A DNA stretch of 64,000 nt from Verrucomicrobia bacterium LW23. GTDB lineage: Bacteria > Verrucomicrobiota > Verrucomicrobiia > Methylacidiphilales > UBA1321. The stretch's first letter is position 1; each line of letters opens with the position of its first letter. Made by a program: the position numbers and the translations under genes. The stretch is from NCBI GenBank assembly GCA_003054695.1, contig QAZA01000025.1, forward strand, positions 1 to 64,000, in the 5' to 3' direction. This document shows positions 1,896 to 30,837 of the stretch, piece by piece. The notes below the pieces were generated by a model, which had not been told where the DNA came from, did no database searches, and was given only the letters and a program-made list of their open reading frames with translations.

Positions 1896-2130
1896 ACTGG
1901 CGATAGTGAATCTTTTCGCGGTCTCTGGCGAGTGAAAAAAATCAATCGTGTGACCTTGCCTCTGCGCGGCCCCAACGCCTTCCCCGTCCTCCCTATCCTC
2001 ATCCTTCTCTTCTTCGCCTATCGCCTCAGAGGCTGTCGACATTCATATCCCTCGTCATCTGTGGTCAATTGAGTAAACGCCTTTACTGGCCCTTTCCGTA
2101 TCTCGTCCCCCGTAGCGTACGCTGCGTCTG

Positions 2131-2229
2131 CCCCGTGGCGACCGTTGCGTGAAAATCCGTCAAGCACTTTGCCCAGTGATAGGGTAATGCACCCGTGGAG
2201 CAGATTTTCACGCAACGTTCGCCACGGGG
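2131..2229. repeat. inverted repeat, hairpin 1 of the 2-3 kb island
   Basis: Arms 2131-2157 and 2203-2229 are near-perfect reverse complements (about 27 bp with one small bulge) around a 45-nt loop. It lies upstream of the secreted-protein gene and is non-coding. Confidence 0.75.
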
Positions 2230-2271
2230 GAAAGGGGAGTTGGCGTTTCAATAAATCTTAGTGGCTTGTAT

Positions 2272-2338
2272 CCCCCTAGAGCGAGACATATGTGAAGCCG
2301 TACTGCAGTACGGAGGAGAATGTCTCGCTCTAAGGGGG
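2272..2338. repeat. inverted repeat, hairpin 2, with perfect 16-bp central palindrome
   Basis: Arms 2272-2289 and 2320-2338 pair almost perfectly. Inside them lies the perfect 16-bp palindrome CCGTACTGCAGTACGG (2298-2313). The arm sequence (CCCCCTAGAGCGAGA) resembles the arms at 20791-20886, so both may belong to one family. Confidence 0.75.
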
Positions 2339-2405
2339 ACGTAAGCCTCCAAGCAGGCGATAAAGGGGGAACGTAAGAAATGTTGAACATCGTGGAAGCA
2401 ACCCT

Positions 2406-2496
2406 CTTGGCGAAGCTTTCCGCCCTTGGCGATGTTATCTGAAGGTCCGTAGATCCAAGGCAGATAGTATCGCCAAGGACGGAAAGTTTCGCCAAG
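2406..2496. repeat. inverted repeat, hairpin 3 (TTGGCGAAGCTTTCCG family)
   Basis: 36-bp arms 2406-2441 and 2461-2496 with few mismatches enclose a 19-nt loop. The arm core is shared with the hairpins at 23250-23412 and 30473-30620, indicating a dispersed family. Confidence 0.8.
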
Positions 2497-2503
2497 GACA
2501 GCC

Positions 2504-2854
2504 TCTAGTGCATTGACAAAGATCTATTTTAGGATCAGACGTGCATGGACGGGGAATTTCTGAGAACCTCGAAGAGGTTCTATAACCTAGCCCAGGGTTC
2601 CCCGAGCGAAGCGAGAGAATCCTGGGTAAGCGGCAGTTTCAGATCAACCCCAACGCGGGTTGTATCCCTCGGCGTCGAAAAGGGATGCGACCCGCGTTGG
2701 GGTCGTTCGATTTCGCGCCTTCACCCAGGGTTCTCTCGCTTCGCTCGGGGAACCCTGGGCTAGGTTATACAACCTCGTTGAGGTTGTCAGAGCCTTGCGA
2801 GCATCTCTTCTTGAACCGCCATAATCCTAAAACAGATCCTTGCTGCAACACTAG
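2504..2854. repeat. 350-bp imperfect palindrome, hairpin 4
   Basis: The two halves are reverse complements over about 165 bp each with scattered mismatches. Both ends begin CTAGTG, and the arms share AACCTAGCCCAGGGTT and GCGAAGCGAGAGAA. Smaller palindromes sit inside each arm (for example GAACCTC/GAGGTTC at 2564-2580 and its counterpart near 2770-2788). The result is a large branched, cruciform-capable element. No protein-like reading frame runs through it. Confidence 0.8.
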
Positions 2855-2894
2855 TCTCCTGAGTCAGAAATACGTATCAATAGCTTGCTACCCC

Positions 2895-3021
2895 TCCGTT
2901 CCGCCCCTTTGTGTCTTCGTGTCTTTGTGGTTAAATAATCCCCATTCCCATTTTCGGAGAGAAGCAGAGAGGAGGGGAATATTAACCACAAAGACACGAA
3001 GACACAAAGGGGCGGAACGGA
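2895..3021. repeat. inverted repeat, hairpin 5 (accacaaagacacgaagacac family)
   Basis: 40-bp arms 2895-2934 and 2982-3021 match almost perfectly. The arm contains TTAACCACAAAGACACGAAG, a sequence type shared with 4805-4901 and loosely with 9143-9175/9519-9552 and 21905-21953. Confidence 0.8.
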
Positions 3022-3078
3022 ACTAATGAAATTTACTTCTGATGCAGGTCATTAGAGGGTTAATTTCGACAGCCCCTA

Positions 3079-3240
3079 GACCAATGAGCAGAGCTGTTTG
3101 GGAGAAATCCCGGGTGCATTTCAGCTCGTGCTGCGTTGGAGCTACGGTCGAGCATCCATGGGGATGCACTCCGTCCGGCGCGCCTGCTCGCATCTCAAAA
3201 TCCCCCCGGGATTTCTCCCAGATAACTCTGATCATTGGTC
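3079..3240. repeat. inverted repeat, hairpin 6
   Basis: The ends 3079-3108 (GACCAATGAGCAGAG...) and 3212-3240 (...CTGATCATTGGTC) are reverse complements, continuing into GGGAGAAATCCCGGG against CCCGGGATTTCTCCC. The centre holds a smaller hairpin around GCATCCATGGGGATGC. It is the last of six consecutive hairpins before the next gene. Confidence 0.75.
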
Positions 3241-3373
3241 TTACGCCAGTCGCGTTGAAGAACGGGCAGGGGAGAGCCCCATGTCCCCATTCCCCTGAGA
3301 CCGGCGTGCCGTCATGCGCATGCGCGTCATCGTGCTGGCGTGGCGAAGGCGGCCGTGGTAGGGTTTGCGCTTT

Positions 3374-4369
3374 ATGTCGCTTACGATTGAAGAAGTGCCG
3401 TTTGGGGGCTGGGCGCGCAACCTGCGTCTGGCCAATAACACCGTCGAGCTCATTATCACCCTCGACGTGGGGCCGCGCATTATCCGCTTTGCGCCGCTGG
3501 GCGGGCGCAACGTGTTCAAGGAGTTTGCCGAGATGTTGGGCGGCACCGGCGAGGCTGAATGGATGATCCGCGGCGGCCACCGCCTCTGGACGGCCCCCGA
3601 AGGCGCGCACAGCTACGCGCCCGACAACACCCCCGTTACCTACTCCCGGCCGGACGACACGTCGGTCGAAATCGAAAGCCGCAACGACACGTTTGGCTTT
3701 ACCAAAACGCTGACGATCGAGCTGCAGCCCAGCGAGCCCGGCCCGGCCCCTGTTGCCGGCGGCCCGGTCAACCCCGGCGGGCGTGTCAAAGTAACGCACA
3801 CCCTTGGCAACGTGGGGGAGAAGCCGCTCGACATCACCCCCTGGTCGCTCAGCGTTATGGCGCCTGGCGGCACGGCCATCATCCCGCAACCGCCGTTTAT
3901 GCCGCACCCCACCGAGGCCCCGCCGGCGGATCCATCCGTGCCGCCGCAACCCGTTAACTACGACGACTTTCTGCCCAATCGCAACCTCATCCTCTGGCCC
4001 TTTACGGTGCTGAGCGACCCCCGCTATACCATGGGCCGCGACTTTTGGGTGGTGCGCCACCAGGACGGCGCGCCCGCCACCAAGTTCGGCATCCTGCACA
4101 AGCAGGGCTGGGTTGCCTACCAGCTGGGCGACATGGTCTTCTCCAAAAAAGTGCCCTACGTGCCCGGGGCCGAGTATCCGGACGGTGGCGTCAACTTCGA
4201 GCTCTTTACCAACACCGCCATCCTGGAGCTCGAGTGCCTCTCCCCCCTCGGCGCGCTGCAACCCGGCGACACCCGCACCCTTGTGGAGCTGTGGCGCCTG
4301 GACGCCACACCGGGCGACCTCTCGAACCCGGAGACCGCCGCCGCGTTCTTCCACGGGCTGGGGGACTGA
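3374..4369 (+). CDS. aldose 1-epimerase-like (galactose-mutarotase fold) protein
   Basis: 331 aa, cytoplasmic, with no signal peptide. The first true ATG is at 3374; a TTG nine bases upstream is less likely. The sequence has the beta-rich pattern of galactose-mutarotase-like proteins: an N-terminal segment with DVGPRIIRFAPLGG, then GGHRLWTAPE near residue 75, a central series of beta strands (VKVTHTLGNVGEKPLDITPWSLSV) and ELFTNTAILELECLSPLG near the end. The family rotates or recognises sugars, but I cannot see an unambiguous catalytic His/Glu pair, so catalytic activity is open. It stands alone between hairpin elements and a tandem repeat. Confidence 0.6.
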   Translation: MSLTIEEVPFGGWARNLRLANNTVELIITLDVGPRIIRFAPLGGRNVFKEFAEMLGGTGEAEWMIRGGHRLWTAPEGAHSYAPDNTPVTYSRPDDTSVEIESRNDTFGFTKTLTIELQPSEPGPAPVAGGPVNPGGRVKVTHTLGNVGEKPLDITPWSLSVMAPGGTAIIPQPPFMPHPTEAPPADPSVPPQPVNYDDFLPNRNLILWPFTVLSDPRYTMGRDFWVVRHQDGAPATKFGILHKQGWVAYQLGDMVFSKKVPYVPGAEYPDGGVNFELFTNTAILELECLSPLGALQPGDTRTLVELWRLDATPGDLSNPETAAAFFHGLGD

Positions 4370-4384
4370 GGCTTCGCGGGTTGC

Positions 4385-4469
4385 GCTGGCGGTGCTGGCG
4401 GTGCTGGCGGTGCTGGCGGTGCTGGCGGTGCTGGCGGTGCTGGCGGTGCTGGCGGTGCTGGCGGTGCTG
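4385..4469. repeat. 9-bp tandem repeat, about 9.4 copies
   Basis: The unit GCTGGCGGT is repeated perfectly from 4385 to 4469, just after the stop of the epimerase-like gene. On the minus strand it encodes a Ser-Thr-Ala run that extends the small reading frame from 4717. Perfect copies suggest recent slippage. Confidence 0.9.
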
Positions 4470-4717
4470 AGATCCGGCCGGGAGGGAGATGACATCTTTT
4501 GCCTGGCCGGACGCCTGGAAGGGGAAATCCGGGCCCTGTGCCGCGCACGCGCAAAGGCCTGCTCTCGGCGCTCCTGCTTCTCAAACTTATCCACCAGCGA
4601 CAGCATCGTGGTGACGTCCCGGGCGGTGGACTTCGGATCCTTCAGCGTATCCAGCGTGCGCAGGCACACGGCCCGCATAATGCATTCGTAGCTGGGGGCA
4701 TCGGCAGTTTGGCTCAT
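4470..4717 (-). pseudogene. possible small-protein gene running into the tandem repeat
   Basis: From the ATG at 4717 the first 65 or so codons give a protein-like sequence (MSQTADAPSYECIMRAV..., then KSTARDVTTMLSLVDKFEKQ), acidic then strongly basic and helical. The frame then enters the 9-bp tandem repeat as Ser-Thr-Ala repeats. It stays open antisense to the epimerase-like gene as far as 3023, which is not credible as protein. I interpret it as a gene whose original 3' end was lost or displaced by repeat expansion. I do not recognise the family. It could also be a chance frame. Confidence 0.35.
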
Positions 4718-4804: not shown

Positions 4805-4901
4805 CTTGGTGTCTTGGTGACTTGGTGGTTAATCTGCCCTTCCCTTAACGCGTTGCGATTTGAAAGGGGATTAACCACCACCAAGGCACCAAGACACCAA
4901 G
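4805..4901. repeat. inverted repeat hairpin (CTTGGTGTCTTGGTG arms)
   Basis: Arms 4805-4833 and 4869-4901 are reverse complements with one 3-nt bulge, ending in GGTTAATC/GATTAACC. It belongs to the same style as hairpin 5 (2895-3021). It lies immediately downstream of prs and could serve as its 3' end. Confidence 0.75.
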
Positions 4902-9142: not shown

Positions 9143-9553
9143 GTTTAACCACGAAGCACACGAACCACACGAAATTTACGGAGGGGAGGAGTGGGAGAAG
9201 GTATGAATAAATAAGCGGGCAAACAATCGCTACTTTCTGTTTCTGAATTCCCCCCTTTGCGGCCTTCGCGTCCTTTGCGTCCTTTGCGCGAAATCAGGCA
9301 CGGGACTTTGCCCGACTTCCAGCCATCGCTTTGCGTTGGGCTGATTTCGCGCAAAGAGCGCTAAGGACGCGAAGGCCGCAAAGGGGGATTCAGAAGGAGG
9401 ATGAATTACCTGATCACTTCCACTGCCTTTTCCCATGCCTCTCCTCCGTCATTCGTGCCATTCGTGTACTCGTGGTGAAAAAAACTCCCCATCCCCTTGC
9501 CCCCTTTCGTCCGCTCCGTAGATTTCGTGTGGTTCGTGTGCTTCGTGGTTACA
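9143..9553. repeat. outer pair of inverted repeats flanking a hairpin (nested element)
   Basis: 9143-9172 (AACCACGAAGCACACGAACC...) and 9519-9552 (...GGTTCGTGTGCTTCGTGGTT) are near-perfect reverse complements. The interval contains the hairpin 9239-9397. It looks like one element inserted in another of a related family. The whole 9082-9568 gap holds no gene. Confidence 0.7.
9239..9397. repeat. inverted repeat hairpin (GCGGCCTTCGCGTCC family)
   Basis: Arms 9239-9296 and 9341-9397 pair over about 50 bp (TTCTGAATTCCCCC against GGGGGATTCAGAA, then CTTTGCGGCCTTCGCGTCC against its complement). The same arm sequence recurs at 12886-13004, 13068-13147 and, as a fragment, at 33172-33198. Confidence 0.8.
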
Positions 9554-12860: not shown

Positions 12861-13176
12861 CATCGTCTTCGTGTTTCCCCGCTGCCCCCTTCGCGTCCTT
12901 TGCGCGAAATCGCCCTGACGCGTTGCAATGCCTCAACGTCGGGCAAAGTGTGGCGCCTGATTTCGCGCAACTGTCGCAGAGGACGCGAAGGCCGCAAAGG
13001 GGGGATACAGGAACAGAGAGGAAGGCTTTGTTTGTAATCAAGGAAGTTATCTTCTTCACGTTTCCCCCCTTCCCCCCCTTCGCGGCCTTCGCGCCCTCTG
13101 CGTCCTTTGCGCGAAATCACCCTGACGCGAAGGCCGCAAAGGGGGGATACAGGATTGGAGAAGAAAGCTTTGTTTG
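12861..13176. repeat. tandemly duplicated hairpin element
   Basis: Two adjacent units (about 12861-13033 and 13048-13176) each consist of a GCGAAATC...GATTTCGCGC-type hairpin with GGACGCGAAGGCCGCAAAG arms. Each is followed by the same tail, GGGGGGATACAGGA, and then a GCTTTGTTTGT stretch. The second unit has a shorter loop. The arms match those at 9239-9397. Confidence 0.75.
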
Positions 13177-20790: not shown

Positions 20791-20886
20791 CCCCTTCGCG
20801 GCTTTGTCCCCCTTAGCGTGAGATAATCCCCTTACGCCCCGCAAAGGCGGATTTTATCACGCTAAGGGAGACAAAGCCGCGAAGGG
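20791..20886. repeat. inverted repeat hairpin (TAGCGTGATA arms)
   Basis: Arms 20791-20826 and 20852-20886 pair over about 34 bp with two mismatches (CCCTTCGCGGCTTTGTC... against ...GACAAAGCCGCGAAGGG). It sits between the AraC stop and the flavoprotein start, so it may separate the two transcripts. A single arm of the same type is at 157-190. Confidence 0.8.
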
Positions 20887-26008: not shown

Positions 26009-26044
26009 TGGCGACACTCGTGCAGACATAGCATCCTCACTAGC

Positions 26045-26135
26045 GCCAAAAGCGCGAAAGCCTATAGCCCAGGGCGTACGCCCTGGGTATGGTATGGATG
26101 GAAATCCGAACGCAACGTTGGCGCTTCGGATTATA
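26045..26135. repeat. palindromic intergenic element
   Basis: A perfect 20-bp palindrome (CCCAGGGCGTACGCCCTGGG, 26068-26087) is followed by the stem AATCCGAA/TTCGGATT (26103-26132). The outer GCGCCAAAAGCGC and GTTGGCGCTT also partly match. Compact paired structures suggest another dispersed element next to the terminator. Confidence 0.6.
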
Positions 26136-29478: not shown

Positions 29479-30471
29479 GTGAACAAGCTTATTCCCAACC
29501 GGGCGTGGGGCTGGGTGGCGACGCTCCTGATTCTGCTCGCCTCTGCGGCTAACCTTTGCGCGGTCAACCACGTTGTGCAAGACGGCGAGTCGCTCCAGTC
29601 GATTGCCGACCAGCACGGGGTTTCCGCCTCGTCGATCGCCGATCTCAACCGGCGCGAGCTCTCCGGCTCCTCCGCCGTGCGCCCGGGCATGAATCTCCTT
29701 ATCCCCGCAACGCCGCCCAAAAAGCGCGAGAGCGAGGCGGTGTACCAGCGCTACGACGAGTTCCGCACCGCCAGCACCACCAGCAAGGGCATCCCCGGCC
29801 GCAAAACGCTCTCCTCCACTCAGGGGGACGCCGCGAAGATTCCGCCCATTGCCGCGCCCGCAGCGCCCAGCGAGGGCGAGACGGTGGTGGAGGCGCCGCG
29901 CATGAAGCTATCGGAACGGCCCTCCGACTCCGACGCGAAGAGCGAGATTAATGTGACATCCGAGGGCGGCATCTTTAACCGCCGCTACCGCTACTTGGGC
30001 CGCGCCAAAGCGAGCATCGACGCCGCCGACGTGGAGCGCGGCCGCTGGCGCATTGTGGTGCTGCACCACAGCGAGACGCAGCGCGGCAACGCCCGCCTGT
30101 TTGACCACTTTCACCGCCGCAAGCGGGGCATGAAGAACGGCCTGGCCTACCACTTTGTCATCGGCAACGGCACGGACTCCCGCGACGGCGAAATCGAGAT
30201 CGGCCCGCGCTGGCGGGAGCAGAAGGACGGCGGCCACGTGCGCAGCCGCGCCCTTAACGCGGTCAGCATCGGCATCTGTTTTGTGGGCGATTTTAACCAC
30301 AGCCGCCCCACCAAAAAGCAAATCGCCGCGTGCATTGAGCTGGTGAAATACCTGCGCCGCCGCTGCGACACCCGCTTCCGCTTTGCCCTGCACCGCGAGA
30401 TTAACCCGCACCCGACGGACTGCCCCGGCAAATACTTCCCGGGCCGCCTGTTTCACCAGATGTTTGATTAG
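29479..30471 (+). CDS. LysM-containing N-acetylmuramoyl-L-alanine amidase (amidase_2 type)
   Basis: 330 aa from GTG 29479 (reads NKLIPNRAWGW, then a hydrophobic core to SAANLCAVN); an ATG at 29338 would add 47 hydrophobic residues. A LysM domain lies near residues 32-76 (VVQDGESLQSIADQHGVSAS, LRPGMNLLIPA-like end). The linker is charged. Residues about 190-328 are the amidase: WRIVVLHHSET gives the first zinc His, GLAYHFVIGNGTDSRDGEI the substrate cleft, and LHREINPHPTDCPGKYF the second His and Cys. It cleaves peptide stems from peptidoglycan. Confidence 0.88.
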   Translation: MNKLIPNRAWGWVATLLILLASAANLCAVNHVVQDGESLQSIADQHGVSASSIADLNRRELSGSSAVRPGMNLLIPATPPKKRESEAVYQRYDEFRTASTTSKGIPGRKTLSSTQGDAAKIPPIAAPAAPSEGETVVEAPRMKLSERPSDSDAKSEINVTSEGGIFNRRYRYLGRAKASIDAADVERGRWRIVVLHHSETQRGNARLFDHFHRRKRGMKNGLAYHFVIGNGTDSRDGEIEIGPRWREQKDGGHVRSRALNAVSIGICFVGDFNHSRPTKKQIAACIELVKYLRRRCDTRFRFALHREINPHPTDCPGKYFPGRLFHQMFD

Positions 30472-30472
30472 C

Positions 30473-30620
30473 AGCTGTCGACATTCCGGGATATTGCAGT
30501 CCCCCCCTTGGCGAGCTTTCCGTCCCTGGCGTCAAAACTCTCTTCGTCGAATGCCAGGGGAGCTTTTAACTCCAAGGACGGAAAGTTTTGCCAAGGGGAT
30601 GCAGCGGAAATGTCGACAGC
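30473..30620. repeat. inverted repeat hairpin (CTGTCGACATT termini)
   Basis: Arms 30473-30541 and 30556-30620 pair with few mismatches around a 14-nt loop (TCTTCGTCGAATG). The ends read CTGTCGACATT and AATGTCGACAG (30474-30485, 30608-30619). It begins 1 nt after the amidase stop, so it could also end that transcript. It is the best-preserved copy of the family also seen at 23250 and in part at 2030 and 2406. Confidence 0.85.
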
Positions 30621-30837
30621 CTGTAGAGCAGGTCTCACTCGAACGCCCGAGCCTCGTAGGATAGCCTTGGCTGTCGCTCGGGGCCTATATACGTCCGTAT
30701 TAACGCCGCTCTTGGAGCGCAAATTCAGCCGGCCTGTGGATAAGATTCTCAGCCAACGCGCACCGGCGGCAACCCTCGCACAAATCCCGCCGATTTGAGT
30801 CGCGCCCGACCCGGTTCTCTGCCAGGATATCCTTGCC

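Follow-up and report, generated by a model that had tools for sequence, protein, structure and literature searches.

An island of hairpins in Verrucomicrobia bacterium LW23 is a nest of MITEs, very probably built by serial insertion at TA

Background

The BOX, RUP and SPRITE repeats of pneumococcal genomes are small, non-coding and bounded by terminal inverted repeats, with IS630-like ends in the case of RUP, and they form clusters in which one repeat sits inside another (PMC3049150). The authors of that work leave open whether such clusters reflect a common site preference or a general tolerance of insertions (PMC3049150). IS630-type elements insert at TA, with CTAG preferred (PMC2170065, citing Tenzen and Ohtsubo 1991), and most members of the IS427 group of the IS5 family generate 2-bp duplications (PMC3281130). 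In the part of its description drawn on here, MITEPsy1 of Pseudomonas syringae is an IS5-like MITE of about 100 bp that inserts at CTAG or YTAA; a 4-bp duplication is reported for it there and no chains are described (PMC3189936).

The island described below belongs with the mutually inserted clusters of the pneumococcal type, but has clearer junctions. Its sequences and its phylum are different from those of the pneumococcal repeats, neighbours in it are joined through a single TA, and one target site can be seen to have been split. MITEPsy1 is comparable as a small IS5-like MITE with a similar target, but is unrelated in sequence. It is a known phenomenon in clean form and not a new system.

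Structure of the island

The window is the whole stretch of 64,000 nucleotides that was analysed (C25:1-64000), taken from a draft genome of 6.6 Mb in 56 contigs. By protein comparison one named relative was found, the metagenome-assembled Candidatus Methylacidiphilaceae bacterium UBA1321, at 51% identity. The initial annotation had reported six strong hairpins between positions 2131 and 3240, and all six were recovered with the same positions and sizes (Table 1). Neither outcome that it had named as refuting was seen. The arms are found genome-wide, and every hairpin folds far better than shuffled sequence, none of the dinucleotide shuffles (200 per hairpin, 100 for hairpin 4) folding as well as the real hairpin. 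The open reading frames inside the island gave no Pfam match, and hence no transposase gene was recognised there.

The left border of the island lies at 2029 instead of 2131, since positions 2029-2043 hold an A-type terminal repeat whose partner is at 3062-3076; the whole island spans 2029-3240. It consists of nested MITEs (non-autonomous DNA transposons), with at least five elements of four terminal-repeat families, termed A, B, C and D, which are short, multicopy and bounded by terminal inverted repeats. The earlier view that several families of hairpin elements had landed here therefore stands, each of the four being repeated elsewhere in the genome. Its two further suggestions do not. The hairpins are not each of a different sequence type, because hairpins 2 and 3 form one element (A-long) and hairpin 1 sits within another (A2), hairpins 4, 5 and 6 corresponding to B, C and D; nor is the place a special landing zone, since an ordinary YTAR/CTAG site has been reused and similar chains occur elsewhere in the genome. 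Family A is present twice, as A2 and as the remnant of A-long.

Table 1. Elements, junctions and hairpins of the island (window positions; z, RNA fold against dinucleotide shuffles)
Feature	Position	Strand	Description
MITE A2, left piece	2029..2258	+	starts GAGGCTGTCGACATT; family A terminal repeat; aligns to uninterrupted A2 paralogue C56:358381-358546
Hairpin 1	2131..2229	.	99 bp; in loop of A2's own small hairpin; missing from C56 A2 copy; z -8.0
Shared TA, A2 left piece / inserted block	2259..2260	.	site TTAG; intact in C56 A2 copy as CTAACTCTTAGAGGG
MITE A-long remnant	2261..2505	-	hairpins 2 and 3; ends ACAGCCTC; left end gone, ~19 bp deleted near right end
Hairpin 2	2272..2338	.	67 bp; z -8.3
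Hairpin 3	2406..2496	.	91 bp; z -11.2
Hairpin 4	2505..2855	.	351 bp; z -19.0 (2504-2844 folded)
Shared TA, A-long / B	2506..2507	.	CTAG; A|TA|B junction recurs at other loci
MITE B	2508..2851	+	344 bp; hairpin 4; GTGCAT..CAACAC; column identity averages 96% over nine aligned copies
REP-like palindromic core of B	2559..2791	.	TAGCCCAGGG..CCCTGGGCTA; found outside B too
Shared TA, B / C	2852..2853	.	CTAG
MITE C	2854..3052	+	~199 bp; hairpin 5; starts GTCTCCTGAGTCAGAAATA
Hairpin 5	2895..3021	.	127 bp; z -16.1
TA, C / A2 right piece	3053..3054	.	second copy of split TTAG site
MITE A2, right piece	3055..3076	+	GAGGGTTAATTTCGACAGCCCC; matches right end of C56 A2 copy, 27-bp block, 3 mismatches
Shared TA, A2 / D	3077..3078	.	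CTAG; A|TA|D junction (L174)
MITE D	3079..3240	+	162 bp; hairpin 6; GACCAATGA..TCATTGGTC; followed by TTA 3241-3243
Hairpin 6	3079..3240	.	162 bp; z -7.9 (3080-3239 folded)

Hairpin 1 may have been inserted into A2 at this locus or may have been lost from the copy on contig C56; relatives of it occur inside other repeats (L040, L041). The open reading frames that flank the island, 312-2042 and 3365-4366, gave no Pfam match, and the latter is conserved in genomes of the same family. Further along the window, tandem GGTGCTGGC repeats at 4381-4470 directly follow a 334-aa open reading frame.

Element families and their copies in the genome

When positions 2040-3300 were compared with the entire genome at the DNA level, 143 matches were obtained that ended at consistent borders, namely about 2257-2497 (hairpins 2 and 3), 2505-2855, 2851-3058 and 3078-3244. 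Inspection of the flanks yielded the terminal repeat of each family: GAGGCTGTCGACATT for A, GTGnnnnnGCAARGATCTAT for B, GTSTCCTRARTCAGAARTA for C and GACCAAT for D. As patterns these hit the genome 151, 44, 41 and 68 times respectively, and the reversed control gave 0 hits. The A terminal repeat was counted 128 times in this genome as against at most once in each of 59 relatives, making family A nearly private to this genome among the 60 searched. The exact A-MITE pattern had no match in a wider contig collection from which the records of this genome itself were possibly left out.

The long version of A is represented by roughly twelve 241-bp copies with 83-95% identity, each covering hairpins 2 and 3 together, and complete copies carrying both terminal repeats exist elsewhere in the genome. 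Hairpin 2 may have been inserted in the long version or deleted from the short one; when the two were set side by side as empty and occupied site, they showed no clean duplication. B also exists in shorter forms, one of 138 bp and one of 157 bp, and D has a 90% identical copy at C17:259981-260148.

Several other repeats were seen in the course of this survey. A solitary second A-family MITE of 153 bp lies at 30471-30623 of the window, flanked by TTA and TAG. A fifth terminal sequence, family F (GAGCATTTTCCAGATAGC; GAGCATTTTCCAGATAGCTTGTCGCG), often adjoins A and C ends at a common TA (L040, L029, L140-L159). In the C element at 382 kb of contig C45 (L007 1981-2160) the hairpin is enlarged by tandem GAAGCCAC/GAAGACAC units, as if one hairpin arm had grown into a minisatellite. 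More inverted repeats, of type CTTTGTGTCTTCGTGTCTTTGTGG or CCCTTCGCGGCC, are located in the window at 4805-4901, 9146-9551, 12958-13146 and 20792-20886; the CTTTGTGTCTTCGTGTCTTTGTGG motif matches this genome 82 times and other genomes of the phylum only a few times. At 26042-26087 the window contains an Acido-Lenti-1 RNA match exceeding the Rfam gathering score.

Target site and target-site duplication

Within the collected loci a TA flanks the ends of A in 93 of 121 cases, those of B in 35 of 47 and those of C in 30 of 35, and this TA is preceded by C or T in nearly every case (A, 85/93; B, 35/35; C, 29/30). One end of D is flanked by TTA and the opposite end by TAA. These counts point to YTAR, mostly CTAG, as the target of A, B and C and to TTA as that of D, with a duplication of TA on both sides for the first three families and of TTA for D. 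In A elements the right-hand TA is followed on the outside by either G or A, the first base inside the left end is always G, and the mirror image holds on the other side. Because the outer base is variable and the inner G constant, TA is the duplicated unit and the G and C are part of the element. A 4-bp duplication of CTAG was considered for family A and ruled out, as the outer bases on the two sides vary independently.

Probable serial insertion at regenerated sites

The island very probably arose as MITEs accumulated by serial insertion into the TA within YTAR, mostly CTAG. The elements start with G and end with C, so an insertion converts YTAR into YTA-G...C-TAR and both of its ends are again YTAR target sites. 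Further elements of any YTAR-inserting family could then join at these ends, in either orientation and with the TA in common, and the near absence of spacers would follow from the sharing of one TA by insertions at such regenerated ends.

The split site within A2 illustrates this arrangement. The A2 copy on contig C56 is continuous, and window positions 2029-2126, 2224-2261 and 3052-3078 align to its consecutive parts, the junction of the last two blocks being the intact site of the paralogue. In the window this TTAG is divided by the block of A-long, B and C, with a TA on each side. A comparable case is a B copy at L016 that occupies the CTAG of a REP motif found intact elsewhere. The nearest relatives compared gave no orthologous empty site, as they match the downstream gene only and are too divergent across the island.

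An order of events can be proposed from the flanks, since D has TTA on its right and CTA on its left, the C being the last base of A2, and A2 has TCA on its left, presumably a mutated TTA. D would have landed first, at TTA, after which A2 would have entered the TA of the left TTA flank of D, and the block of A-long, B and C would have entered the internal TTAG of A2. Later A-long would have eroded, losing its left end and the ~19 bp near its right end, and a single T-to-C change would have taken place in the left flank of A2.

Junctions of this kind are not confined to the island. Neighbouring elements in the collected loci, which were partly gathered by similarity to the island, are separated by exactly 2 bp in 28 cases, by 3 bp in 2, and by other distances from -10 to 200 bp in 8. 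The pairings seen are A-B, A-D, C-F, A-C, B-C, A-F and D-D. Locus L042 has the chain A2-C-A and L007 the chain A-B-C-A, with C next to B but reversed relative to the window; as order and orientation vary between loci, these chains were not produced by copying a single ancestral array.

It could be argued that a tolerant intergenic gap is sufficient to explain the pile-up, the regenerated sites having no preferential role. This would modify the reading of serial insertion, and we consider it rather unlikely. In the same partly similarity-gathered loci elements are stacked well beyond what YTAR sites across the genome would lead one to expect. If about one tenth of YTAR sites are tolerant, however, a proportion that is assumed and not measured, the stacking of A, B and D does not exceed expectation, so that it is unproved that element ends are preferred to tolerant intergenic sites. 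Family C exceeds even this restricted expectation. Moreover, that 28 of the 38 close pairs share exactly one TA is not the scatter of distances that tolerance would lead one to expect. Serial insertion at YTAR, with elements joined through one TA, is the preferred reading.

Candidate transposases

A probable source for family A is resident in the genome. The terminal repeat of A occurs around a DDE_Tnp_1 gene as a 19-bp CTAGAGGCTGTCGACATTC inverted repeat. An insertion sequence (IS) at C10:283199-283887 combines an A-type terminal repeat and a CTAG flank with the end of a DDE_Tnp_1 transposase, a run of N interrupting the draft sequence inside it; a related IS copy on contig C41 retains a DDE_Tnp_1 stretch of 144 residues. 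Numerous contigs stop just inside an A-type IS, the pattern to be expected where assembly fails at near-identical copies. The DDE_Tnp_1 transposase and the 2-bp duplication, both present, place the source of A in the IS5 family, probably in its IS427 group. An N-terminal DUF4096 in related copies and short perfect terminal repeats are further likenesses to that group, whereas the A MITEs have only the terminal repeat in common with the IS. From that common repeat we infer that A would be moved in trans by the resident IS5-type transposase.

For C and D an IS630-type transposase probably acts in trans, judging by the resemblance of their terminal repeats. A DDE_3 (IS630-type) gene on contig C19 is flanked by ends that begin GACCAATT, similar to D. 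C-like ends adjoin an open reading frame with helix-turn-helix domains, and C-type IS ends are found at about a dozen contig ends, the coding part being absent from the draft assembly. The TA duplication, the preference for CTAG and the genomic DDE_3 transposases with D-like ends are all shared with the IS630/Tc1-mariner group; unlike it, D is flanked by TTA on both sides, and the likeness of C and D lies in their ends. No autonomous partner of B was found in the genome.

A wider proposal would have two unrelated transposase families, IS5-type and IS630-type, converging on YTAR, every insertion rebuilding the site, chains feeding their own growth preferentially at existing elements, and the shells carrying exchangeable REP-like hairpins. 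This is tentative, and we give it somewhat less than an even chance.

Alternative origins of the hairpins

Very stable folds and a location between divergently transcribed open reading frames are features that would also suit functional structured RNAs or regulatory hairpins under selection (an sRNA, an attenuator or a cluster of terminators). However, the Rfam scan gave no match within the island, copies are dispersed in unrelated contexts, and among the 130 pairs of the nine 344-bp B copies there were 0 compensatory changes, the covariation term being unfavourable. Nothing in these nine copies points to selection on the fold, and we regard a functional RNA as very improbable. The hairpins follow from the palindromic build of the elements, and there is no evidence in the data of selection on folded RNA.

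The core of B raises the further possibility that REP-associated tyrosine transposases (RAYTs) moved all of the hairpins as palindromic units. The genome has four Y1_Tnp genes and a fragment, and two of these genes (L003, L055) are flanked by AGCCCAGGG..CCCTGGG hairpins, a motif also present in the B core, where the full unit is not identical. The core, with its paired palindromes, thereby resembles REP/BIMEs, and it occurs without the B shell at C25:98645, C10:1931, C9:147347 and C9:245884, where matches are limited to about 2558-2791. The shell of B, on the other hand, is a TA-flanked element with terminal repeats of its own. Families A to D all end in terminal inverted repeats with a flanking TA, as is typical of DDE elements, and for A there is a matching insertion sequence with DDE_Tnp_1, so that mobilization by RAYTs fits the B core only and is highly unlikely for the island as a whole. 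A single composite unit or array spreading whole, with the hairpins as its modules, is less credible still: some neighbour pairs recur (A-B, B-C) and the A2 terminal repeats enclose most of the island, but most genomic copies match a single element with its own boundaries, order and orientation differ among loci, and an A2 lacking the inner block exists on contig C56.

Implications

A nest of MITEs put together by serial insertion at TA shows at base resolution how hairpin islands of bacteria form, with neighbours having one TA in common. This genome offers several hundred element ends, and junctions that can be counted, and so makes the question of site preference versus tolerance testable. 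Large non-coding hairpins in genomes of this kind should be checked first as transposon stacks before they are called RNAs.
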